From Planctomycetota bacterium (GTDB taxonomy: Bacteria > Planctomycetota > Phycisphaerae > UBA1845), in NCBI GenBank assembly GCA_024276605.1, contig JAJRWX010000041.1, positions 1 to 39,419 on the forward strand: 39,419 nucleotides of DNA, in the 5' to 3' direction. Within the stretch, counting starts at the first letter, position 1; each line of letters begins with the position of its first letter. Positions 1 through 39,332 of the stretch are shown here, in pieces. A model generated the notes under the pieces. That model was not told the DNA's origin. It ran no database searches and worked only from the letters and a program-made list of their open reading frames with translations. Both the position numbers and the translations under genes were made by a program.

Positions 1-141
1 AGGGTGGCATGGGCAAGGCTTTTTTTGCCCGTGGTGGCCACCGGAGCTACACGGGTAAGTCCCGATGTATCCCGACTATACGTCGGGATACATCGGGACT
101 TACCCATGCCACCCGAATTCTTAGCTGTGACGAAGCACTAG
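1..141. repeat. MITE-like structured repeat, copy 1 (left end outside window)
   Basis: The segment holds a perfect 24-bp inverted repeat (53-76 against 82-105, 5-nt loop) inside an outer 12-bp inverted repeat, GGGTGGCATGGG at 2-13 against CCCATGCCACCC at 103-114. A side hairpin GGGCAA...TTGCCC lies at about 11-30, and CCCGTG/CACGGG pair around 28-55. The right terminus 123-141 reads CTAGTGCTTCGTCACAGCT on the minus strand. That matches the left terminus of the copy at 24457-24636 (CTAGTG, four variable bases, GTCACAGCT). Bases 53-122 differ from the second copy at one position only, in the loop. No transposase is present, so a non-autonomous element is the best reading; the family is unknown. 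Confidence 0.75.
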
Positions 142-24287: not shown

Positions 24288-24632
24288 GCCTTATGATGTT
24301 ATCTCAGAATAGCCGCATCTGCTAATGCGTTCTGGATGAAAACGGATTTGACTCTGTTGCGTAGTTATGACTGAAGCGACGGGTTAGTCATCACAGAGCC
24401 GCGCCCGTAAGGAAGCGACCGGGACCGAAACCCAAAAGGCCGCGTGTGAACGTACACTAGTGCCGAGTCACAGCTTTTTTTTTCGGGTACATCCAGTGTG
24501 GCATGGGCAACGTTTTTTTTTGCCCGTGTCGGCCTCCGGAACTACACGGGTAAGTCCCGATGTATCCCGACTTTACGTCGGGATACATCGGGACTTACCC
24601 ATGCCACCCGAATTCTTAGTTTTGACACAACA
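24288..24632. other. Intergenic repeat-rich region
   Basis: About 345 bases between the TMTC-like gene and an amidohydrolase gene. Roughly 24300-24390 should contain the promoter and leader of the TMTC-like gene; no consensus promoter stands out. At 24391-24420 is a GC-rich stretch, TCACAGAGCCGCGCCCGTAA followed by GGAAGCGACC, that resembles short dispersed repeats I associate with planctomycete genomes (from memory, unverified). The remainder is the complete structured element at 24457-24636. Confidence 0.6.
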
Positions 24633-24636
24633 CTAG
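24457..24636. mobile_element. MITE-like structured repeat, copy 2 (complete, about 180 bp)
   Basis: Imperfect 19-bp terminal inverted repeats occur at 24457-24475 and 24618-24636, with 14 of 19 positions matching (CTAGTGxxGxGTCAxAxCT). The interior holds a perfect 24-bp hairpin, 24548-24571 against 24577-24600, and the same nested GGCATGGG/CCCATGCC arms as copy 1. ACACTAG occurs in direct orientation at both ends (24454-24460 and 24630-24636). Copy 1 also ends in CACTAG, so this is more likely element terminus than target duplication, although CTAG would fit a CTAR-type target. The TAG stop of the neighbouring amidohydrolase lies inside the right terminal repeat. No transposase is encoded. 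Confidence 0.72.
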
Positions 24637-25859
24637 CGTATTTTATCGCTGACCATCCGTCCGTTGATGATGGTACCGATGCAGTGCGAGGTGTATTCAA
24701 ACGGGTCGCCATCGTACAACGCGAGGTCGCCGTCTTTGCCCACTGCGATGGACCCGATACGTTCATCAACACCTAACAGGCGCGCCGCGTCGATAGTGAT
24801 TGAAGCTAAGGCTTCATCAAACGTTAGACCATTGGCTGCTGCAATAGCTGCTTCGAATAATACGACGCGCACCTTGGGTACGTAGCTTTCATATCCACTT
24901 TGTAGTGCAATCCTAATACCAGCGTGCTTGAGTGTAGCCGCTGTTTCAAAAGATTGATTTTTTCGATGTCCCACAGCGCGATACATGGCTGGATGAACAA
25001 TGACCCAAACACCGGCGGCTTTAATTTCGTCAATTAACAGATACGCCTCCGCTGCGGAGTCCAGCACGATGTCAATATCGAATTCCTTGGCTAATCGCAG
25101 TGCGCTGGCGATATCCTGTGCGCGGTCCGCCGTAATGAGCAGGGGGATCTCACGAGACAATACGCGGGCTAAAGTTTCCAGAGCGAGGTCACGGTCGGGT
25201 TTTTTATCTGCTTCCGCCTTGATTAGTTTCTGTTGATATTCGCGTGCTTTAATGAGCTTCGCACGAAGGATAGCCATCAACTTGCCGCGTGTACCGGGTG
25301 ATTTCGGCTTTCCCTTTTTTAGTGCTGAGGGACTTAGGGTAGTCGCGATCATGGCAGACTCTACAAGGGTGACGTCGCCAATGGTGTTGCCGAAGGTTTT
25401 GGCGATCATGGTTTGACCGGAAATCGCTTCACCGGGTGCATGTCCGGTATGCACCGTAGTGACACCGAATGAACGTATCCACGTGACGAGTTCATCCTGG
25501 GTGTTGTACGCGTCAATCGCACGTAGCTCGGGTTGAATCGGTGCGGAGTGTTCGAGCTGGTCTTGGTCGTGTTTGTAATTCAAGATACCGCTAAGGCCCA
25601 CCGTGGCATGGGCATCAATTAGGCCCGGCGTAACGACCTCAGCATCCAATACGCGATAACCTGCCGGGATAGTGACACTATTAGCCGGACCAACTTGGCT
25701 TATCTTACCATCTGTGATGACAATCACACCGTTGGAAATACTCGGGCCTGACATGGTATGAACCGTACGACCACGGACCACGACTTGGGCATGCGCTACT
25801 GTCGTAACTAGACTAGCTAAGAAGATCGCCACAGTGATGGGTATTGAGCGTGTTATCAT
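24633..25859 (-). CDS. Exported amidohydrolase-family protein lacking the second His of HxH
   Basis: A 408-residue protein with a signal peptide (residues 1-24, cleavage VAHA-Q) and an amidohydrolase fold of the imidazolonepropionase-like type. Family landmarks are GRTVHTMSGPSISNGVIVI, VVTPGLIDAHATVGLSG, LDSAAEAY, the ITIDAARLLGVDERIGSI block and VGKDGDLALYDGDPFE. In the metal-binding HxH motif the second His is Thr (HAT), so catalysis may be changed or absent. It starts directly after the stop of the upstream paralog (TAAATG) with GGAGGG about 6 nt upstream, so the two are co-translated and may form a heteromer. The stop codon is provided by the adjacent repeat element. Confidence 0.87.
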   Translation of the reverse strand: MITRSIPITVAIFLASLVTTVAHAQVVVRGRTVHTMSGPSISNGVIVITDGKISQVGPANSVTIPAGYRVLDAEVVTPGLIDAHATVGLSGILNYKHDQDQLEHSAPIQPELRAIDAYNTQDELVTWIRSFGVTTVHTGHAPGEAISGQTMIAKTFGNTIGDVTLVESAMIATTLSPSALKKGKPKSPGTRGKLMAILRAKLIKAREYQQKLIKAEADKKPDRDLALETLARVLSREIPLLITADRAQDIASALRLAKEFDIDIVLDSAAEAYLLIDEIKAAGVWVIVHPAMYRAVGHRKNQSFETAATLKHAGIRIALQSGYESYVPKVRVVLFEAAIAAANGLTFDEALASITIDAARLLGVDERIGSIAVGKDGDLALYDGDPFEYTSHCIGTIINGRMVSDKIR

Positions 25860-39283: not shown

Positions 39284-39332
39284 TCTGTTCAGCGATTGAC
39301 GTGCAATCCGAACCCCGACCGTGACAAGCTGT

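Follow-up and report, generated by a model that had tools for sequence, protein, structure and literature searches.

What kind of element is the unit of nested palindromes that occurs twice in this stretch of planctomycete DNA, and what keeps the arms of its long hairpin nearly perfect? The window (the whole stretch analysed, 39,419 nt) is contig C20 of a draft genome of 4.5 Mb in 110 contigs, here called G000. The nearest public relatives of one of its proteins, at 84-85% amino-acid identity, belong to uncultured Phycisphaerae/Planctomycetota (isolates OFTM182 and Dive100). The unit is very probably a non-autonomous MITE of the IS630/Tc1-mariner type, with a REPIN as its interior; its long hairpin is most likely kept by template switching. 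The parts of the two copies are as follows.

24457 to 24636, plus strand: complete IS630-type MITE, copy 2 (180 bp)
24457 to 24475, plus strand: left terminal inverted repeat of copy 2, CTAGTGCCGAGTCACAGCT, with 2 mismatches to the consensus
24498 to 24528, plus strand: REP 1 of copy 2, guide GTGG and stem CATGGGCAA/TTGCCCGTG with a T-rich loop
24529 to 24544, no strand: spacer separating REP 1 from REP 2 in copy 2
24545 to 24607, minus strand: REP 2 of copy 2, inverted, guide GTGG and 27-bp stem with a 5-nt loop, forming the long near-perfect hairpin
24618 to 24636, minus strand: right terminal inverted repeat of copy 2, CTAGTGTTGTGTCAAAACT, with 3 mismatches
24633 to 24635, minus strand: TAG stop of the neighbouring amidohydrolase gene (24633 to 25859, minus strand), made up of the target TA and the first base of the element
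1 to 141, plus strand: copy 1 of the same MITE, right-hand portion, its left part missing at the contig end (REP 1 at 4 to 33, REP 2 at 50 to 112, right terminal repeat at 123 to 141)

The mobile part of copy 2 is taken as 24460-24633, with TA on either side (24458-24459 and 24634-24635). Both copies reported by an earlier, sequence-only reading are present, and when aligned they are identical at 77 of 78 positions, from CTACACGGG to CTTAG, the sole difference lying in the hairpin loop; this agrees with the 69 of 70 given before. Terminal repeats had been assigned to both ends of both copies, which holds for copy 2 but not for copy 1, where only the right repeat is present because the contig starts inside the element, as several other contigs also do. 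The 180-bp unit folds far more strongly than shuffled sequences (z -10.5 as DNA, -11.7 as RNA), and the multi-way junction proposed for it corresponds to a REPIN with its pair of REP hairpins. The arms of the longer hairpin measure 27 nt and are 96% complementary around a 5-nt loop. A search of the window against Rfam at the gathering threshold gave no match, and a known structured RNA was dropped as the identity of the unit.

Two further repeats were observed in the window. A palindrome of a second class (GAGCCGCGCCCGTAAGGAAGCG) lies at 24396-24417 (plus strand), some 40 bp to the left of copy 2; palindromes of this class form the MITE cargo in a related genome (G057) and at four loci (L032, L037, L045 and L049). 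Near the contig end, at about 39294-39325, GATTGACGTGCAATCCGAACCCCGACCGTGAC resembles the interior of another CTAG-ended repeat (L226, L242).

The window holds two members of a far larger family, and the earlier count of two copies has to give way to dozens. A search of the genome with the 180-bp unit returned 136 candidates; the 40 that were scored show 88-100% identity. The hairpin arm is found 76 times in forward and 77 times in reverse orientation (control 0), and the 19-bp terminal repeat 96 and 93 times (controls 0 and 2), a count that allows up to 3 mismatches and takes in IS ends and other cargoes. In total the genome has some 76 hairpin cores, and the 19-bp end, with consensus CTAGTGCTKTGTCACAGCT, occurs in about 80 pairs. 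The family comprises roughly 60-80 small gene-less elements. At about 178 bp, non-coding, with 19-bp inverted ends shared by many dispersed copies, they bear out the earlier description as MITE-like. No exact match to the core was found in a public genome collection that leaves out near-identical genomes. Shortened copies also occur in G000 (L042, L034, L254); they keep the ends and the outer REP parts, and most of the long hairpin is gone, as if the palindrome had been lost in replication.

The sequence-only reading took the loop-only difference as a sign of recent spread or of selection on the fold. Two copies are weak ground for this; over 71 hairpins the covariation of the arms is strong, and it comes with inversion of the loop. 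Apart from a constant T-G wobble of REP 2, 58 of the 71 stems are perfect. One-sided changes number 20. Two-sided changes number 18, at 10 positions, and every one of them gives a Watson-Crick pair; in 2000 shuffles, which take the copies as unrelated and leave their kinship outside the model, there were 1.06 such pairs on average and never more than 6. Six of the 18 paired changes, all the same T-A to C-G pair, may go back to a single inherited event, in which case about a dozen remain. The loop is present in both orientations (CTTTACG in 23 hairpins vs CGTAAAG in 8, and CTATACG in 8 vs CGTATAG in 7). When a polymerase switches template between inverted repeats, the described signature is that the arms become homogenised and the spacer inverted (PMC8604942; see also PMC8794818), and the covariation and loop inversion found here indicate template switching at least as much as selection.

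According to the alternative, it is not a mutational process that keeps the pairing but selection, the folded RNA or DNA having a function, for example as a transcription terminator, mRNA stabiliser or regulator. The excess of compensated pairs (18 where 1 is expected) would fit this, as would the location of the copies, which are mostly intergenic, near the 3' ends of genes and rarely between divergent genes (2 of 30), and an effect of MITE transcripts on mRNA stability has been reported (PMC3733652). We nevertheless think it the less likely of the two. The two loop orientations are predicted by template switching and not by selection on pairing, no Rfam family matches, and the strong hairpin has no directly adjoining T-run on either strand, unlike an intrinsic terminator. 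Selection for folding could act alongside template switching, but alone it does not predict loop inversion. The 71 near-identical dispersed hairpins, with their compensated arms and flipped loops, allow a test of how far mutation by template switching, as opposed to selection, lies behind 'covariation', a question that bears on the inference of structured RNAs.

The ends of the MITE are those of an IS630-family transposon. Its left end resembles the right end of the IS and its right end the left end of the IS (over about 38 bp and about 31 bp inward, respectively, in copy 2). The agreement extends past the terminal repeat, with the motifs CTTAATKTT.GGGT and CTAAGAATT.GGGT common to both, so that the MITE looks like an IS630 element with its middle replaced. 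No fewer than 13 further loci of G000 begin with the left end of the IS, followed by a ribosome-binding site and MQKKYVVRLSDEERDTL. In these loci the sequence runs on into the open frame MQKKYVVRLSDEERDTLREV and every time stops at a contig end, as would be expected for a collapsed multi-copy IS, the interior of which we infer. Only the N-terminal part of the IS630 transposase is visible in this genome, and the assembly contains no complete IS630 gene, only a sub-threshold DDE_3 fragment.

A complete copy of the IS, 1227 bp long with perfect 19-bp ends, is present in G057 (L274:867-2093). It has two overlapping frames, of which ORF1 scores 65.6 bits against the IS630 family model (cut-off 100), and ORF2 scores 121.7 against the IS630 model NF033545 (cut-off 100) and 71.9 against DDE_3 (PF13358, cut-off 28.6). 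This copy and the ends in G000 point to an autonomous partner with the same termini, which the sequence-only reading had suggested looking for. A 1234-bp IS630-like element (L154), with weaker ends and a masked stretch, was rejected as the direct parent in favour of L274. Relatives contain further IS630-type elements (L154, L269, L272, L277), whose ends lie about 1.2 kb from each other and are of a related CTAGT type, so several IS630 lineages with such ends coexist in the family.

The nested palindromes between these ends are a REPIN, that is, two inverted REP sequences with a short spacer (PMC3116915). GTGG stands at the foot of the CATGGG...CCCGTG hairpin, in the REP layout of a GT[AG]G guide at the hairpin foot (PMC6006769, PMC8266576). 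The motif TTACCCATGCCACCC, comprising the REP head and the stem foot, is found 188 times in G000, 70 times in G002 and 37 times in G001 (control 0-1). The latter two genomes, of the same genus, have no MITE ends; they contain lone stem-loops, e.g. GTGG-CATGGGTAAGC-TACT-GCTTACCCGTG, and inverted pairs too (L174, L183). RAYT homologues in G026, G021 and G028 are flanked by REPs of this GTGG-hairpin class, the G026 protein scoring 90.7 against the RAYT model (cut-off 80), and in G021 the REPs in the MITE (L158) and those beside the RAYT (L310) are of the same subtypes. The closest RAYT of the window's genome (C23:19013-19548) is split into two frames, possibly through a sequencing or assembly error, and has no REPs of the MITE class beside it. 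A RAYT beside such REPs was sought in this genome and given up, the Y1-transposase loci examined showing no such pairing.

A link to RAYT had been hinted at before; it stands in so far as the core is a REPIN, but this core is packaged in DDE-type ends. It is improbable that the unit as a whole is first and foremost a RAYT-mobilised REPIN, with the CTAG ends as incidental hitchhiking flank: in most copies both 19-bp ends lie at fixed distances and the flanking sequences cease to agree precisely at CTAG, the ends match those of an actual IS630 element, and the same ends occur without the MITE-type REPIN in L032, L037 and G057. The state of the local RAYT, broken and with no such REPs alongside, also speaks against it. 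In its favour are REPINs that occur without MITE ends in the window's genome and genus, and three loci (L022, L023, L027) in which the core has one IS-like end only.

Some lone REPINs of G000 (L239, L240, L241, L242, L252) have ATCATTTGTT at their border and a CTAG some 27 bp away from the REP head, which suggests another MITE shell whose terminal repeats differ from those described above. REP stems of very unequal length with a similar base (CATGGGTAAGTCCCGA or close to it) occur in G000 (L235, L243) and in the same genus (L052, L054, L056, L057), suggesting growth or rebuilding from the tip.

For an IS630-type MITE with a REPIN interior, a target site can be proposed from the ends. Of 42 left ends, 35 have C as the outermost base, and 41 of the 42 right ends have G there; no position further out is conserved, and abutting elements have one CTAG in common (L037, L260, L264). 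CTAG is present at nearly all ends and at tandem junctions. A target C-TA-G with duplicated TA would account for both the end bases and the shared CTAG, TA duplication and CTAG ends being inseparable from sequence alone; the outer C and G would then belong to the target, and the element would begin at GTGC. According to PMC2170065, which cites Tenzen and Ohtsubo 1991, IS630 inserts into TA, preferentially in CTAG. The earlier guess at an IS5-group element with a CTAR target was abandoned as very improbable: CTAG at both ends is compatible with YTAR, but the ends, which match over 25-38 bp, are shared with an IS630-family IS and not with an IS5-family IS, and the matching autonomous element encodes an IS630 transposase.

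In the mechanism that we propose, full-length IS copies in the same cell would supply the IS630-family transposase, which would bind the 19-bp ends, excise the element and insert it at TA, mostly within CTAG. These steps are deduced from the termini, from the pattern of targets and from the biochemistry known for the family. Between the IS ends lies a cargo of two inverted REPs of a second system, RAYT (TnpA-REP), its GGGTGG head merged on one side with the GGGT motif of the IS end. This REP head coincides with the shell GGGT at an offset of 27 bases from the C of CTAG, the same in G000 and G021, and the common offset could reflect one ancient junction or repeated microhomology joints. Template switching between the arms during replication would copy arm onto arm, could flip the loop, and is most likely what keeps the hairpin near-perfect.

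Comparison with related genomes supports the claim of recent spread. The right CTAG of copy 2 provides the TAG stop of the amidohydrolase gene, and in two close relatives of the same genus (L058, L059) this gene ends at the same codon with no MITE, a short REP or REP-like remnant lying further along. At a second site the MITE begins at the stop codon of a gene that we take, from its sequence, to be leuS; the one relative examined (G002, L378) has the same C-terminus (..GRLVNIVAT) and no MITE. The right outer base there is A, consistent with a CTAA target. Because the MITE is missing at two orthologous sites in same-genus genomes, these insertions are recent. The flanks of the 42 copies readable on both sides are mutually unrelated, which shows a dispersed family and not a product of assembly; although many copies lie at contig ends, these distinct flanks and the two insertions comparable with orthologous sites leave virtually no chance of an artefact of collapsed repeats.

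Eleven of 86 element ends fall on the stop codon of an open frame that is 90 codons or longer, compared with 2 among the window's 112 stranded CTAG sites (Fisher p 0.003); this enrichment is only suggestive, since many of the other CTAG sites lie inside genes, where selection would remove insertions. Insertion into CTAG recreates TAG, so that, judging from few cases, such insertions would be nearly harmless, which suggests a route for spread beside genes with little harm.

The closest known systems each share a part of this architecture. Correia/NEMIS of Neisseria and Nezha of cyanobacteria are IS630-type elements. They have been named as MITEs (PMC3733652) and, like the planctomycete elements, are short, gene-less, high in copy number and located near genes, with 15-30-bp terminal repeats of an IS630-type transposon; unlike them, the planctomycete MITE has a REPIN, two REPs of a RAYT system, as its interior. 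With the REPIN/REP-RAYT systems (PMC3116915, PMC6006769, PMC8266576) it shares the two inverted REPs and the GT[AG]G guide beside a stem-loop, of a class that adjoins RAYTs in relatives, whereas its position between DDE-type transposon ends, the unusually long 27-bp stem of REP 2 and the broken frame of the local RAYT set it apart. The transposase family and TA target are those described for IS630 of Shigella and ISY100 in PMC2170065, as is, for IS630, the preference for TA in CTAG, but the partner IS is a planctomycete member with two overlapping frames, known from its sequence. In REP-targeting IS elements (PMC1525189), IS and REP are likewise physically associated, but there the IS breaks the REP, whereas here the REPs lie inside a transposon-derived shell; that paper does not list IS630 as a family that targets REPs. 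In the open-access literature, of which coverage was incomplete, no report came up of a REPIN enclosed by ends that derive from an IS. The planctomycete MITE combines two unrelated miniature mobile systems in one abundant element, one of a double-strand DDE transposase and the other of a single-strand HuH enzyme.

The ends are present in 18 of 51 genomes of the family, with differing cargo, and in other genera the shell surrounds other inverted palindrome pairs. Most of the 17 copies examined in G057 (end counts 52 and 56) have a different palindrome, GAGCCGCGACCGTGAGGGAGCGG, as inverted pairs inside the shell; REPINs of the GGGTGGCA class occur in G018 and G021. L242 consists of a lone-type REP joined to the right half of a MITE REPIN, a hybrid that suggests exchange through recombination. 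A broader proposal, offered tentatively and at somewhat less than even odds, is that IS630-type MITE shells are general carriers of REPIN-type cargo in this planctomycete family, with palindrome pairs that differ between genera, the cargo being exchanged (as in L242) or kept in step with the RAYT-linked REPs of the host (as in G021). Two unrelated transposition systems would thereby meet in one element and, in parallel, leave a natural record of template switching that maintains long bacterial hairpins. A related shell in G042 (L138, L155) contains a further type of cargo, tandem hairpins such as GTGCGAGAATCCTTTCTCGCAC and GGCCGAGAAGGGATTCTCGGCC.
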